Source: Cyanobacteriota bacterium
Lineage (GTDB): Bacteria > Cyanobacteriota > Vampirovibrionia > Vampirovibrionales > Vampirovibrionaceae
Direction of reading: 5' to 3'
Assembly (NCBI GenBank): GCA_019751815.1
Contig: JAIEMW010000004.1
Span: 167,933-231,932, forward strand
DNA: 64,000 bases
In this document: positions 4,578 to 9,651 of the stretch, piece by piece
Position numbering within the stretch: position 1 is the first letter of the stretch
Layout of the letters: each line of letters opens with the position of its first letter
Position numbers and translations under genes: made by a program
Notes under the pieces: generated by a model
What the model was told of the DNA's origin: nothing
Seen by the model: the letters and a program-made list of their open reading frames with translations, nothing else
Databases searched by the model: none

Positions 4578-5954
4578 TTACTCAAACAGTTTTTCAATGG
4601 CAGCATCCAGCTCAAAGCGACCATTTTGATAGCGGTAAACGTGCAGAGGATGCCGCTTGTTGCTTGCATATTGCCGAACGACGAGTTCTGGAATCCCGTT
4701 GGCATCAAGGTCTTCCACCACTTGATACGCATTCACCCCGGCACTAAAATGGCACAGCGGCTGTTTTTGAGCGTTGTACAGCCAAAATTCTTTTGTCGAC
4801 TTTTCTGAACCTGTGGTGAGGCCCTCTGAGAGTTCGCTTTTGTGCAGATACAGGTAGAACGGGGACTCGCCTGGAACCCAATTCACGCGAAATGCTTCTT
4901 GAAGGCCTGCTTCTAATCCTTCTCCGGGCATCACTTTCTCAGGCACAGCTTCGGCCAACAAGGTTAGGCTTTCTGGCAGTTTATTGGTTGCAGACTGCTT
5001 TTTAATCTCAGACGACTTGCCAGATTTCTTATCAATAGCATTCCCTGAAGCATTACCTGAACTTTTCCGAGCAACTATCTCCGCTGGAGAAAGCATTTCC
5101 AAGGCACCGGCCATCGATTTTCCATAAGGAAGATACTTTTGGCTGAAATCTTGACGGGTGAAATCCGCGTACGCGGGCACGCCTGAGAGGCGGTCCACGG
5201 TATCAGCAAAAGCAGGCCAGAAACCGGGCTGGTGCATTTCTGAATCCCGGGTCACTGCATCAATCAGTTTATACGTCACATCGAGTTTCCGCATCGTCAT
5301 TTCAGCAGGGGACGATGCCTCTTGTCCTAAGTCCACATCCGCTTCTGCCAGCGCATAGGCCAAACTGGTAAACTGATTTTTAAGACGGTCATTTGCTTTT
5401 CTGAGGAAAAATAAGCCGGTTTTATTGTTTTTGAGGACTATTTGACCGTAGCCTTGATCGAAAAAACGAACCACATTCTCTGGCGCCAGCTGTTGCCGTT
5501 GAAACACCCATTTTAATAGGCGTTCTTGCTCTGTGGCATTTAACTCTTTAGATGCCCGGCGGAAGGCTTCCATATGGACCAACAAATGTTGATCTTGTTC
5601 AAGAGCGGGAAATAGCGTTTCAGCTTTTTCTAGCTTTTCGGGCCAGAGAGTGGCTTCGTGATAGGCCGTAACCGGAAACACAATTTGATGCAGCAGGTCG
5701 ACAGAGGAAGTTGCAGCAGAATTTACAGTCGATGTGGCCGTGATAATCACTTGCTTTGGCGGATCTTGTATCACCGCTTTTGGTAACACCGTTTTTGAAG
5801 CCTTGCTTGCAGCCTGTCCCTTGATAAGCTTTGCATCTACTGCCATATTAGACCCGTGAATGCCGCCCAGGCCTATGCCCAGAATAAAAAGAATACCCAC
5901 TTGCAGAACACTCGTTTTGCTGGTGTATCTTGCAAACCCCATTATTGTCGTCAT
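4578..5954 (-). CDS. Exported or membrane-anchored protein of unknown function with a C-terminal Ca-binding-like repeat
   Basis: 458 residues, family not recognised. Residues about 14-35 (VLQVGILFILGIGLGGIHG) form a hydrophobic segment after a short basic N-terminus, so the protein is anchored in or exported across the inner membrane. A Thr/Ser/Ala-rich linker follows, then a mostly helical charged region. Near the C-terminus the stretch VVEDLDANGIPELVVRQY has the D-x-D-x-N-G pattern of VCBS/FG-GAP calcium-binding loops, followed by a short beta-rich end (LHVYRYQNGRFEL). A Ser/Lys-rich low-complexity patch occurs around residues 295-325. It is convergent with the LOG-family gene and stands alone on its strand. 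Confidence 0.7.
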   Translation of the reverse strand: MTTIMGFARYTSKTSVLQVGILFILGIGLGGIHGSNMAVDAKLIKGQAASKASKTVLPKAVIQDPPKQVIITATSTVNSAATSSVDLLHQIVFPVTAYHEATLWPEKLEKAETLFPALEQDQHLLVHMEAFRRASKELNATEQERLLKWVFQRQQLAPENVVRFFDQGYGQIVLKNNKTGLFFLRKANDRLKNQFTSLAYALAEADVDLGQEASSPAEMTMRKLDVTYKLIDAVTRDSEMHQPGFWPAFADTVDRLSGVPAYADFTRQDFSQKYLPYGKSMAGALEMLSPAEIVARKSSGNASGNAIDKKSGKSSEIKKQSATNKLPESLTLLAEAVPEKVMPGEGLEAGLQEAFRVNWVPGESPFYLYLHKSELSEGLTTGSEKSTKEFWLYNAQKQPLCHFSAGVNAYQVVEDLDANGIPELVVRQYASNKRHPLHVYRYQNGRFELDAAIEKLFE

Positions 5955-6093
5955 TGGATTTCCCTGCTCCTGGCTTCCCGGCTTCTGGTTTTACCTCATT
6001 TATTGTACACAGAAGCGCTATATCAAAGCACTGTCTCCGGGTCAAAATTGTTACATTTGTCGTTTGAACTTGAGGTGGGCAGAATGAGTTGGC

Positions 6094-6149
6094 AAAACAA
6101 AAGGCAGTGGCCTCTGTGTCTGTTTGCACAGACTAGTATGCCCACTGCC
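6094..6149 (-). terminator. Intrinsic terminator of the phasin-like gene
   Basis: On the minus strand GGCAGTGG (6149-6142) pairs perfectly with CCACTGCC (6110-6103), with an inner stem GTCTG/CAGAC, and is followed directly by TTTTGTTTT. It lies about 75 bases past the stop codon of the 6225-6623 gene. The rest of 5955-6224 shows no gene. Confidence 0.7.
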
Positions 6150-6224
6150 AAATAATGTGTGTGTGTATGATAGAGATTAAAACGTCTTAAATCAGTCAAC
6201 TAGATTTAAAAAATAACTTGAAGA

Positions 6225-6623
6225 CTAGCCATTGCGGCGGGAAACGCTTGGGTTCACCCAATCCATGCCCTTGTTTATCGCATCTTGCATGACATCTTCA
6301 AACACGTGCTGATTTTTCACGTTCACTTCTTGCCACTGTTGGGCATAGTCATGAAACGATTTGACAGACCCTTTTTGCAGCTGCATCATTTTTTCAAACC
6401 AAACATTGGCATATTCCAAGTTCTGATTTTGGATATCGCGGTTAAACTGCTGCATTAAAGAAACATGGCTCTGTTGGAAATTCATCCAATGGCGCATCCC
6501 GTTTGAACCCATAGCAGACAATGCGGCGATGTGTTCATTCATAGCATGAGTGTAATCTTGAAAGGTATCTTTGTGGTTATTCTGGGTCTCGCGGTTCGTT
6601 TCTCTTGACTTGGTCTCTGGCAT
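6225..6623 (-). CDS. Phasin-like PHA granule-associated protein
   Basis: 132 residues, predicted to be almost wholly helical and amphipathic, rich in Gln, Asn, Met and Trp, with no cysteine, signal peptide or membrane segment. That profile, plus its place divergent from phaR in a PHA locus, fits a phasin coating polyhydroxyalkanoate granules. No specific family motif was recognised, so the call leans on context. Segments such as NRDIQNQNLEYANVWFEKMM and SFHDYAQQWQEVN resemble phasin helices in character. The Shine-Dalgarno AAGGAG stands 7-8 bases before the ATG. A TGC-palindrome shared with the phaE leader lies just upstream. Alternative: a small helical protein of the same locus with another role. 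Confidence 0.6.
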   Translation of the reverse strand: MPETKSRETNRETQNNHKDTFQDYTHAMNEHIAALSAMGSNGMRHWMNFQQSHVSLMQQFNRDIQNQNLEYANVWFEKMMQLQKGSVKSFHDYAQQWQEVNVKNQHVFEDVMQDAINKGMDWVNPSVSRRNG

Positions 6624-6653
6624 GGTGTGTCTCCTTATTCAGATAGTTTATTT

Positions 6654-6666
6654 TGCATATGCACAA
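6654..6666. promoter_or_regulatory. Candidate PhaR operator, copy A
   Basis: TGCATATGCACAA contains the perfect 10-base palindrome TGCATATGCA (6654-6663). It recurs with a single change (TGCATCTGCACAA) at 7385-7397 before the phaE-like gene. It lies between the likely promoter and the Shine-Dalgarno of the phasin-like gene, a position suited to repression. PhaR proteins are known to bind TGC/GCA-rich sites and to repress phasin genes. Confidence 0.55.
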
Positions 6667-6676
6667 TATAAATCCA

Positions 6677-6705
6677 GTTTAACCGCTGAGTTTTGATCCC
6701 GTCAA
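6677..6705 (-). promoter_or_regulatory. Possible promoter of the phasin-like gene
   Basis: On the minus strand TTGACG (6705-6700), a 17-base spacer, then TTAAAC (6682-6677). The -35 is good and the -10 poor. It points at the phasin-like gene, and operator copy A would lie near +5 to +20 of the transcript. Confidence 0.4.
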
Positions 6706-6751
6706 GGGGGTATCGCAAGACAAACCTGTTACTGCTACAATACCGACTGTT

Positions 6752-7363
6752 ATGACACCTTCTCTTCGCACCTACAAAAAATACAGTAACCGCCGTCTCT
6801 ACGATGTGGCCCAAAAAAGCTACGTGACCGTTGAAGCCATGGTTGAGCACATTCAGGCTGGCGGGTTGGTCAAGGTTTTAGACGCTACCACCCAGGAAGA
6901 CATTACACAAACTGTCTTGCTTCAAGTGGTTTTGGACACCCAAAAACAGCACCTTAATGCTTTGCTAACCACCCCACTCCTACATCAAATGATCCAATTC
7001 CAAGGTCTGGCGCCTGGTAAGCCGAACGACCCGTTGATGAATGATTTTTTCCAGAATAAACTCCCTCACCTCATGAATGCCTATGTGCAGTGGCAGCATA
7101 ATACACAAAATCAATTTTTTGAGTGGGCCCAATCTGGCTGGAGCACACCTTCAGGGTGGGGAATGCCTTCTGCCTGGGGGATGCCCCCTGGGTTTAATGC
7201 GGGTCGTGCGCCGAACCCTCCCGCTTCAACGTTCTCAGAAACGCCTGCAGAATCTCCTGAGAATACCCCAGAATCCCTGACTGAGCTGAAAGCCAAAATT
7301 GCAGAACTGGAAGCCCTGATCAAAAAGAAGAAGGTCTTGAAAAAAGAGAAGAAACCACGTTAA
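6752..7363 (+). CDS. phaR: PHA synthesis repressor PhaR (DNA-binding, PHB-accumulation regulator)
   Basis: Senses PHA polymer and represses phasin and synthesis genes when no granule is available. The N-terminal 60 residues are the PHB/PHA-accumulation DNA-binding domain: RTYKKYSNRRLYD, SYVTVEAMVEHI and VKVLDATTQEDIT match the family closely. The middle (TTPLLHQMIQF...) fits the second, polymer-sensing part. A Pro/Gly/Trp-rich linker (about residues 120-165) follows, then a short coiled coil ending in a Lys-rich tail. No Shine-Dalgarno precedes the ATG, and TACAAT (6736-6741) ends only 10 bases before it, so the message may be nearly leaderless. The phasin-like gene is divergent, and the phaE-like gene follows 94 bases on. 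Confidence 0.88.
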   Translation: MTPSLRTYKKYSNRRLYDVAQKSYVTVEAMVEHIQAGGLVKVLDATTQEDITQTVLLQVVLDTQKQHLNALLTTPLLHQMIQFQGLAPGKPNDPLMNDFFQNKLPHLMNAYVQWQHNTQNQFFEWAQSGWSTPSGWGMPSAWGMPPGFNAGRAPNPPASTFSETPAESPENTPESLTELKAKIAELEALIKKKKVLKKEKKPR

Positions 7364-7384
7364 AATAATCATAGCCAGTTTTGC

Positions 7385-7397
7385 TGCATCTGCACAA
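7385..7397. promoter_or_regulatory. Candidate PhaR operator, copy B
   Basis: TGCATCTGCACAA, 12 of 13 bases identical to copy A at 6654-6666, with flanking T/A tracts that also match (TTTTGC before, ACAAAA after). It is 61 bases upstream of the phaE-like start codon, so it could control the phaE-phaC-phaJ operon. Confidence 0.5.
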
Positions 7398-7457
7398 AAT
7401 CCACACAAGCCATATGGCGGGATAAGGGGTTTATTTACATAATAAGGAAACATTCTC

Positions 7458-8045
7458 ATGCCTAGCAAAAGCGCCTCTAGCGCCCATGAAACCGATTCCA
7501 ATTCGCAAGCCAATGCGCAATATCAGGCCTGGCTTGGGATGATGCAGCAAATGACACGAGACAATATGCAGTGGTTTCAAAATTCACTGGATATGGCTCA
7601 AAATTTAGCTCAAGGAACAGCCCAACAAGGATATCCCTTTAATACAGAAAGAACTGGGCCCCAAGTGGACCCGAAAAGCATGTATGACGCATGGCTCAAG
7701 AACTGGACACAGCATCTTGAATCCATGATGGCAGGCGCTGAGTTTTCTGAGCACAGCGGCAAAACACTCCATGCGGCTTCAGAAGCCAAACAAAACATGG
7801 ATCAAATGCTGCGTCAATACTGGCACTCTCTGCAACTGGCGAACGCTGAGGATATGAAAGAAGTGTATCTCAAGCTGTACCAAATGGAACGGCGGCTCGA
7901 TGACTTGACCGATATGCTCCACGACTGGATGAGTCTGCAGGAGAAAAATGCACCTGCACAAAAACCGGTAACCCCTGTCAAAAAGCCCACTGCTAAAAAA
8001 CCTGCTGCTAAAAGACCGACGAAAAAAATGAGTGAGCGCCCATGA
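7458..8045 (+). CDS. phaE: PHA synthase accessory subunit (PhaE-like)
   Basis: Class III and IV PHA synthases need a partner, PhaE or PhaR(IV), encoded next to phaC. This 195-residue helical protein overlaps phaC by 4 bases (ATGA), which implies translational coupling and equal dosage. Its C-terminal half contains EVYLKLYQMERRLDDLTDML, similar in character to the conserved helix near the end of PhaE/PhaR(IV), followed by a Lys/Pro/Ala tail (PTAKKPAAKRPTKK). It is much shorter than typical PhaE (about 350) and close in size to the Bacillus subunit (about 200). Gln/Met-rich segments near the N-terminus (AWLGMMQQMTRDNMQWFQNS) also resemble phasins. The Shine-Dalgarno AAGGA lies 8 or so bases before the ATG. 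Confidence 0.7.
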   Translation: MPSKSASSAHETDSNSQANAQYQAWLGMMQQMTRDNMQWFQNSLDMAQNLAQGTAQQGYPFNTERTGPQVDPKSMYDAWLKNWTQHLESMMAGAEFSEHSGKTLHAASEAKQNMDQMLRQYWHSLQLANAEDMKEVYLKLYQMERRLDDLTDMLHDWMSLQEKNAPAQKPVTPVKKPTAKKPAAKRPTKKMSERP

Positions 8046-9160
8046 CTACGACACAAGAAAACCCGTTTTTGGAACAATTTTTTTCAACATTTTGCCCAGA
8101 ACAATTTGAGCGTGTGCGCCGTGGGTTTGAGAACACACGTAATTGGTCTCCACAAATCGCGCAAACTCCGCATCGAACGGTCTACGAGATTGGCAAAGCC
8201 AAATTAGTTTATTACCCACCTGCCGCTGAGGCAGCCGTAAACTATTTACCACCGGTTTTGGTGGTGTTCTCTCTGATTAACCGTCCCTATGTACTGGATT
8301 TAAAACCGGGGAAAAGTGTAATTGAGCAGCTTGTGAAGGCTGGTTTCCCGGTTTATTTAATCGACTGGGGCTCTCCTGGGCCTTCCGATCAATTTTTAAC
8401 CCTGGATGACTATGTTAACCGTACCATGCGTCGTTTCGTGCAGTGGATTCAACGAAAAGACAGTGTAGAGCGTGTATCGATGCTGGGGTACTGTATGGGC
8501 GGCACGATGGCGGGCATCTTTGCGGCACGGTATCCTACCTGGATTGAGAATTTAATTTTAATGGCAGCCCCCTTTGATTTTGGTTCTGGCGACGGGCTGT
8601 TAAACCGTTGGTCTGACGAAAAACACTTTCAGGCGGGACATTTAGTCGCTGCCATGGGCGGTAATATCCCGCCTTGGTTTCTACAATCGTGTTTTACGAT
8701 GTTGAAACCAATGCAAAACACAGTGGATAAGTATGTCAAATACTATGAGAATCAGGATAATCCACAATTTGTGGATGATTTTCTCACTCTAGAATACTGG
8801 CTGAATGATAATATTCCTTTGGTGGGCCCTGTCTATCAACAGTTTGTGGAAGATTGTTTTCAGCACAACCGCCTCATTCAGCAGAAAATGCCCCTTGGCA
8901 ACCAGGTGATCGATTTAACGGCCATTCAATGCCCTGTGCTGTCGTTGGTCGCAGAGCATGATCATCTTGTTCCCCCTTCTTCCAGTAAAGCATTGCACGA
9001 TCATTTGGGGCCTACCCGCTCTGGCAAAGCGGATAATACGGTCATCAGCTTTCCTTCAGGCCACATTGGTCTTTCTGTCAGTGGACGGGCAATGAAAGAG
9101 CTGTGGCCACAAGCGTGTCAATGGCTGCAATCCCGTTCTGAGCAAGCGCGTTCTCAATAA
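8042..9160 (+). CDS. phaC: Poly(3-hydroxyalkanoate) synthase, class III/IV type (PhaC)
   Basis: Polymerises (R)-3-hydroxyacyl-CoA to PHA on the granule surface. It is an alpha/beta hydrolase with the lipase-like box GYCMGG carrying the catalytic Cys at C151, Asp at D307 (EHDHLVPP) and His at H341 (SGHIGLSVSG), spaced as in the Allochromatium vinosum enzyme. The sequence LINRPYVLDL...VYLIDWGSPG is strongly conserved in the family. The 372-residue length is that of class III/IV synthases; class I/II enzymes are about 560-600 residues. The start overlaps the PhaE-like subunit stop. A PhaJ-like hydratase follows 29 bases later. Confidence 0.95.
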   Translation: MTTTQENPFLEQFFSTFCPEQFERVRRGFENTRNWSPQIAQTPHRTVYEIGKAKLVYYPPAAEAAVNYLPPVLVVFSLINRPYVLDLKPGKSVIEQLVKAGFPVYLIDWGSPGPSDQFLTLDDYVNRTMRRFVQWIQRKDSVERVSMLGYCMGGTMAGIFAARYPTWIENLILMAAPFDFGSGDGLLNRWSDEKHFQAGHLVAAMGGNIPPWFLQSCFTMLKPMQNTVDKYVKYYENQDNPQFVDDFLTLEYWLNDNIPLVGPVYQQFVEDCFQHNRLIQQKMPLGNQVIDLTAIQCPVLSLVAEHDHLVPPSSSKALHDHLGPTRSGKADNTVISFPSGHIGLSVSGRAMKELWPQACQWLQSRSEQARSQ

Positions 9161-9189: not shown

Positions 9190-9651
9190 ATGAGTCAACC
9201 CAGTCACTCCGGAGCCAGCGGCCTACTCAATCCCCATGCATGCCGTGCGGGGGATGCCGCCCAGATGAGCCTACCGATTACGGAGCAAATGGTACAAATC
9301 TATGCCGCCCTCACGGGGGATACAAACCCCATTCATACGGATCCTGAAACCGGTCGTAAAAGTATGTTTGGCACCAACATTGCACACGGCATGTTGGTTG
9401 GCAGCTTTTTTGGCCCCGTGATTGTAAACCAACTGATTGGACCAGGGGCCATTTACCGCAAGCAAACTCTGGAATTTGAGGCACCTGTGCCCATAGGAGA
9501 AGAAATTACCGCCGTCGTGAGCGTAAAAGAGGTCAAAGCCAGAGAAGATAAGACCGTCTATATTCTGCAGACGGAGTGTTTTCTATCCAGCAATCAGTCA
9601 GGCACGCGGGTCATTTCTGGAGAAGCCGTGATTGTGGTCTTAAAGTCTTAA
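9190..9651 (+). CDS. phaJ: MaoC-like (R)-specific enoyl-CoA hydratase (PhaJ-type)
   Basis: Hydrates trans-2-enoyl-CoA to (R)-3-hydroxyacyl-CoA, feeding PHA synthase from beta-oxidation or fatty acid intermediates. Hot-dog fold, with the hydratase-2 motif YAALTGDTNPIH containing the catalytic pair D44 and H49, then FGTNIAHGMLVGSFF. Length 153 is typical of PhaJ (about 135-160). The Shine-Dalgarno ACAGGAGA lies before the ATG. It is the last gene of phaE-phaC-phaJ. A related role in fatty-acid metabolism cannot be excluded, but adjacency to phaC favours monomer supply. There is no phaA/phaB in the window, so PhaJ may be the main monomer source here. Confidence 0.85.
   Translation: MSQPSHSGASGLLNPHACRAGDAAQMSLPITEQMVQIYAALTGDTNPIHTDPETGRKSMFGTNIAHGMLVGSFFGPVIVNQLIGPGAIYRKQTLEFEAPVPIGEEITAVVSVKEVKAREDKTVYILQTECFLSSNQSGTRVISGEAVIVVLKS

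Follow-up and report, generated by a model that had tools for sequence, protein, structure and literature searches.

The window, by which we mean the whole 64-kb stretch of DNA that was analysed, contains a PHA locus where a PhaR-like regulator gene lies between a divergent phasin-like gene and the genes of a class III PHA synthase. Three relatives that carry the same regulator are used for comparison alongside the window's own genome (G000): G003, G010 and G014, all MAGs from the Vampirovibrionales, one of them titled 'uncultured cyanobacterium'. The genes of the locus are the following:

6225 to 6623, minus strand: phasin-like gene, named from synteny and from homology to its G010 (L006) counterpart
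6752 to 7363, plus strand: PhaR-like regulator gene (PF07879)
7458 to 8045, plus strand: phaE, class III PHA synthase subunit (PF09712, 26.0 bits)
8042 to 9160, plus strand: phaC, class III PHA synthase (TIGR01836, 339 bits, E 2.9e-101)
9190 to 9651, plus strand: phaJ-like MaoC-domain hydratase (PF01575, 82.6 bits)

These profile matches bear out the gene calls of the initial annotation, which had placed a PhaR-like gene at 6752-7363, followed by phaE, phaC and phaJ. The product of the regulator gene scores 68.6 bits against PF07879, the PHB_acc_N DNA-binding domain, well above the cut-off of 25; against the NCBIfam PhaR equivalog TIGR01848 its 68.6 bits fall below the cut-off of 109.45, as do the 89.0-100.8 bits of the PhaR proteins of the three relatives, and we class it by sequence as PhaR-like under PF07879 rather than as an equivalog under TIGR01848. 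A Pfam search with the 6225-6623 product returned no phasin match, so that the label 'phasin-like' depends on synteny and on the homology of a relative's protein: the syntenic protein of G010 (L006), to which it is homologous (BLASTP E 7e-13; hhalign 97%), reaches 30.2 bits for Pfam Phasin_2, above the cut-off of 24.9, while those of G014 and G003 stay under it with 21.6 and 19.1 bits. The PhaE match passes its cut-off of 25.7 and adjoins phaC, as expected of a class III synthase; PhaC remains under the TIGR01836 cut-off of 365.3, this family being by far the top-scoring PHA synthase class for the 8042-9160 product.

In the two gaps next to the regulator gene, the initial annotation had noticed a shared 13-base word and had seen in it the mark of a PhaR regulon. 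Both words are found there, TGCATATGCACAA at 6654-6666 and TGCATCTGCACAA at 7385-7397. The 13-mer itself does not stand as the element, since each copy is the right-hand part of a 16-bp inverted repeat, TTGTGC-N4-GCACAA, with a centre unlike that of the known PhaR box; the regulon, as we shall see, fares better. The match that had also been claimed for the flanking T and A tracts holds only in part: on the left, TTTTGC lies three bases further out at the second site, and on the right the flanks disagree when aligned without a gap and agree only with one. The elements that we consider in and around these gaps are:

6651 to 6666, no strand assigned: putative operator O1, TTTTGC-ATAT-GCACAA, 11/12 to TTGTGC-N4-GCACAA
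7382 to 7397, no strand assigned: putative operator O2, TGCTGC-ATCT-GCACAA, 10/12, between phaR and phaE
7946 to 7961, no strand assigned: weak candidate for a third N4 dyad, 9/12, inside the 3' end of phaE
6676 to 6705, minus strand: predicted phasin promoter, TTGACG-18-TAAACT, by consensus match
7337 to 7366, plus strand: predicted phaE promoter within the end of phaR, TTGAAA-18-TAAAAT, by consensus match

O1 sits within a 20-nt palindrome (6649-6668), and O2 aligns with complete or near-complete sites in the three relatives. The candidate in the 3' end of phaE was rejected as a third operator: codon shuffling of the phaE tails of the four genomes gave 0.107, 0.002, 0.144 and 0.174, a single tail out of four being improbable, and the dyad at 7946-7961 may be due to chance because 11% of codon shuffles reach its score. 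Counting this dyad, three of 9/12 with an N4 centre occur between 6373 and 7961 within the coding regions of the phasin-like gene, phaR and phaE; the whole window has 17 such dyads, of which these three and O1 and O2 make up 5. An RNA element at the sites was also rejected, Rfam having no match at 5900-7600.

Both repeats lie at predicted promoters. Promoter-like sites number three in this stretch, against 1.4 expected by shuffling; O1 lies just downstream of the predicted phasin -10, and O2 follows the predicted phaE promoter. The latter promoter and its operator align in all four phaR-bearing genomes, the operator coming 3-4 nt after the -10 in the relatives and 15 nt after it in the window. 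Coding constraint on the tail of phaR may explain part of the promoter match; it does not explain the operator, because this follows the phaR stop codon. On the phasin side, the three relatives have, as judged by eye, a site directly upstream of the -35 of a promoter TTGAC/T-17-TAAACT.

The regulator is carried by 4 of the 58 related genomes searched, own genome included, and searching 18 genomes of the order with a profile gave the same four. In each of them the phasin-like gene is divergent from phaR, which phaE follows, and the inverted repeat is found again in both corresponding gaps of the three relatives, where in fact the half-site TTGTGC/GCACAA was first recognised. G014 and G010 have the complete repeat (12/12) in their phasin gaps, and in the other six gaps it scores 9-11/12, those of G003 having sites of only 10/12 and 9/12; the four PhaR proteins are only 39-42% identical. 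When TTGTGC-Nk-GCACAA is scored in each of the eight gaps, the best scores add up to 85 at k=4, for a shuffled mean of 57.3 (sd 2.34), that is z = 11.8, a sum that none of 2000 shuffles attained; at k=3 the sum is 61 (z = 1.6). Scores above the shuffles are also seen at k=6 (z 6.9), k=7 (z 5.5) and k=2 (z 4.5), probably as echoes of repeated half-sites. Overall, spacing 4 is the best or joint-best dyad class in all eight gaps, except that a longer spacing exceeds it by one or two in G000_E and G003_E, and across the gaps the half-sites are well kept as the centre bases vary.

How far such words are distinctive must be judged with the whole genome in view. A scan of the own genome (2.62 Mb), which had been proposed as a check of the regulon, finds exact TGCATNTGCACAA only at the two sites; as the same pattern read backwards also has 2 copies, the exact-copy count alone proves nothing. 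With 2 mismatches allowed, the window holds 12 matches against 9.0 expected, hence no excess. The shorter word TGC-N4-GCACAA is more instructive. Twenty occur in the own genome, 18 within ORFs, and the 2 outside are the two sites described here; G010 has 34, the 3 outside ORFs all falling in both pha gaps, and G014 has 22, with 3 of the 4 outside ORFs in both pha gaps, whereas G003 has 14, with none of its 4 outside ORFs at pha (backwards controls: 9 in G000, 2 in G010, 11 in G014, 23 in G003). These ORF calls are mechanical, and one G014 pha-gap site was once counted as lying in an ORF owing to an upstream GTG start. Loci from 17 genomes of the order contain, among the matches listed, at least five full 12/12 sites: three in ORFs, in G012, G013 and G008, where a profile search found no PhaR, and only two outside ORFs, between phaP and phaR in G014 and in G010. 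What lifts the sites beyond chance is therefore their place, as the sole out-of-ORF words of the own genome, together with their conservation in relatives. A wide regulon in the own genome was rejected, as there is no further intergenic TGC-N4-GCACAA, and among the out-of-ORF sites examined with at most 2 mismatches, both cores are kept by the two at pha alone; on this sequence evidence the regulon seems limited to the pha locus, PHA-synthase operon included.

Published PhaR boxes, from alpha- and betaproteobacteria, share the half-sites and differ in the centre. In the parts of the sources available for comparison, a 3-bp centre is found in TGCRNYGCASMA (PMC6201568), in the core YGCRNYGCR (PMC12542648), in TG[N]TGC[N]3GCAA and CTGC[N]3GCAG (PMC3206438), in YTKNTGCRNYGCANMAR (PMC12849132) and in NGCN(3)GC[GA]N(3) (PMC10888616). 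We computed observed over expected counts of TGC-Nk-GCA within 400 bp upstream of PF07879 ORFs, using the best-scoring PF07879 matches only (loci for 30 of 51, 30 of 101 and 24 of 24 places) and leaving out the near-duplicate L092 and the 2 of 29 Desulfobacca-phylum loci that had no ORF. The Desulfobacca phylum (27 of 29 loci, best-scoring matches) gives 20/2.5 at k=3 and 4/2.6 at k=4, the phylum of the Leptospiraceae locus (24 loci) 13/1.5 and 1/1.6, Pseudomonadota (31 loci, best-scoring matches) 16/4.0 and 4/3.7, and Vampirovibrionales (4 loci) 1/0.14 and 3/0.3. When the arms are scored, one more Leptospira-phylum locus being dropped, z at k=3 and k=4 is 5.0 and 0.4 in the Desulfobacca phylum (27 loci), 9.2 and 2.7 in the Leptospira phylum (23 loci), 3.0 and 2.1 in Pseudomonadota (31 loci), and 0.0 and 9.8 in Vampirovibrionales, where 4 of 4 loci reach at least 10/12; an N3 spacing at the Vampirovibrionales pha loci was rejected for want of signal. 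Upstream of phaR in Pseudomonadota (L124-L153, L090), k=1 (28/3.2) and k=6 (18/3.4) reach the same level of enrichment as the N3 box; overlapping TGC repeats may be the cause. Since the spacing picture of this phylum is mixed, it is chiefly the other two phyla and the published boxes that carry the contrast. N3 PhaR-box-like repeats were also seen before the PF07879 gene in L045 (Desulfobacca), L049 (Leptospiraceae) and L050 (Balneolales), from phyla for which no PhaR-box report was found in the parts of the literature compared.

Judged from these sequences and from the published boxes compared, the half-sites of Vampirovibrionales stand one base further apart (4 against 3 bp), a new detail that so far concerns one order and four genomes. 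Inverted TGC/GCA half-sites are present at the phasin and pha promoters, as in a PhaR box; the element would function like one there, yet it departs from the 3-bp centre. Likeness and difference recur in each known system, as far as the cited sources cover it. The box of Alphaproteobacteria (S. meliloti AniA/PhaR, B. diazoefficiens and, as cited, R. sphaeroides) has TGC/GCA half-sites in TTGTGC...GCACAA arms and phasin promoters among its targets, as here, and the EMSA-tested S. meliloti phaP1 promoter site has the very half-site TTGTGC/GCACAA (PMC12542648); its centre is of 3 bp (YGCRNYGCR, TGCRNYGCASMA, CTGC-N3-GCAG), not 4, and its regulons are large, where that of the own genome would be limited to the pha locus. 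In R. eutropha H16, PhaR binds phaP1 around the TSS and immediately before the -35, the same promoter positions as here, at a degenerate palindrome with a central single-nucleotide axis, hence an odd palindrome, TGC-N3-GCA, where ours is even (PMC12849132). Herbaspirillum seropedicae PhbF, a PhaR homologue, represses phasin and its own gene via TGC/GCA sites, again with a 3-bp centre, in TG[N]TGC[N]3GCAA, unlike the 4 here (PMC3206438). The PhaR of Haloferax mediterranei is, as here, a local regulator that shares a class III pha cluster with the phasin, phaE and phaC genes, but it is an unrelated AbrB-like protein, with tandem repeats before phaRP (PMC9049629, PMC10948481).

In a tree of 88 PF07879 rows, built on few columns, with several long branches (L003 included) and with the seven weakest Leptospira-phylum rows (L170-L176) left out, the four Vampirovibrionales PhaR proteins form one clade (100/99). 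It lies amid proteins of the Desulfobacca phylum and of Pseudomonadota, with six other Cyanobacteriota proteins placed elsewhere. This placement suggests horizontal acquisition of PhaR, with a change of spacing on that branch. The six other proteins, from genomes outside the order (L082-L087), have another gene context, with neither an N4 site nor a PHA gene found in the 3-kb stretch, and lie near Leptospira-phylum proteins in the tree; that other Cyanobacteriota share the same PhaR system was rejected on these three grounds. Residue 22 is Lys in all four Vampirovibrionales PhaR proteins, where two large groups have Ser in 58 of 58 rows; Lys22 also occurs in L168, L169 and L089, and as L169 has an N3 site this residue cannot alone set the spacing and was rejected as diagnostic. 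The predicted structure is confident for the DNA-binding part (pLDDT about 90; overall pTM 0.43); its comparison with the PDB gave no clear match, which has no bearing on whether the fold is known, and a sequence search for a solved structure of the PhaR repressor family found none.

Several explanations may account for these observations. That the 13-mers resemble each other by mere chance, without function, would fit exact copies no commoner than in the backwards control and the lack of excess in the window; we hold it as very improbable, for four genomes keep the repeat in both gaps despite such divergent PhaR proteins, and both sites are the sole intergenic copies in the own genome. Another transcription factor might co-regulate the locus through these sites, PhaR binding elsewhere. 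The unusual spacing, compared with the known boxes, speaks for such a factor, which we nonetheless consider unlikely: the half-site is that of published PhaR sites, the intergenic words lie mainly or only beside phaR in three of the four phaR-bearing genomes, and no N3 signal is there to offer PhaR an alternative target.

A subtler alternative accepts PhaR binding and sees in the 4-bp centre only the shared ancestry of four loci combined with a loose tolerance of spacing, recognition geometry being unchanged. Four genomes of one order, and several spacings enriched at Pseudomonadota loci (k = 1, 3, 6), make it a possibility to be taken seriously, if a doubtful one: the half-sites are kept while the centre varies, spacing 4 is best or joint-best in 8 of 8 gaps but for the two exceptions mentioned, and k = 3 has no signal. 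Against the first two readings, control of the locus by PhaR is favoured by the sites, gaps and promoters shared by all phaR-bearing genomes of the order (4/4), by half-sites identical to published PhaR half-sites, by the grouping of the four PhaR proteins in one clade, and by an own genome free of other intergenic TGC-N4-GCACAA. Weighing on the other side are the N4 centre, unlike that of the published boxes compared, the imperfect sites of G003 with its intergenic words all away from pha, the TIGR01848 scores below cut-off in all four proteins, and a sample of just four genomes.

We may thus see O1 and O2 as very probably the binding sites of the regulator that they flank, and, with good confidence, as operators of a PhaR-like repressor acting as follows. 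A PhaR oligomer would bind TTGTGC-N4-GCACAA at O1, just downstream of the phasin promoter, and also O2, downstream of the phaE-phaC-phaJ promoter, and once bound would block transcription from both; nascent PHA would then titrate PhaR, so that phasin and the synthase operon would both be released. The repeats, their positions, spacing and conservation are observed; from them we infer binding and repression. PHA as the signal is carried over by homology from PhaR in Proteobacteria: in the parts of the sources considered, PHB is said to titrate PhaR in S. meliloti (PMC12542648), and R. eutropha PhaR was measured to bind both DNA and amorphous PHB (PMC3570403). Our search of the open-access PMC literature found no report of PhaR or its operators for the Vampirovibrionales lineage.

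A broader scenario is tentative, and we would put it at somewhat less than an even chance: on the Vampirovibrionales branch, a horizontally acquired PhaR and its operators would have exchanged an odd palindrome (N3) for an even one (N4), altering the geometry of the DNA-bound dimer, and this PhaR would control the synthase operon as well as phasin, in a self-reinforcing storage switch. Control of the synthase operon indeed predicts that polymer made by the synthase would relieve repression of the synthase, so that storage would reinforce itself. The consistent 4-bp centre may serve as a natural experiment on the way in which a repressor family sets the spacing of its half-sites, and the arrangement predicts PHA control in a little-studied, non-photosynthetic lineage of cyanobacteria.
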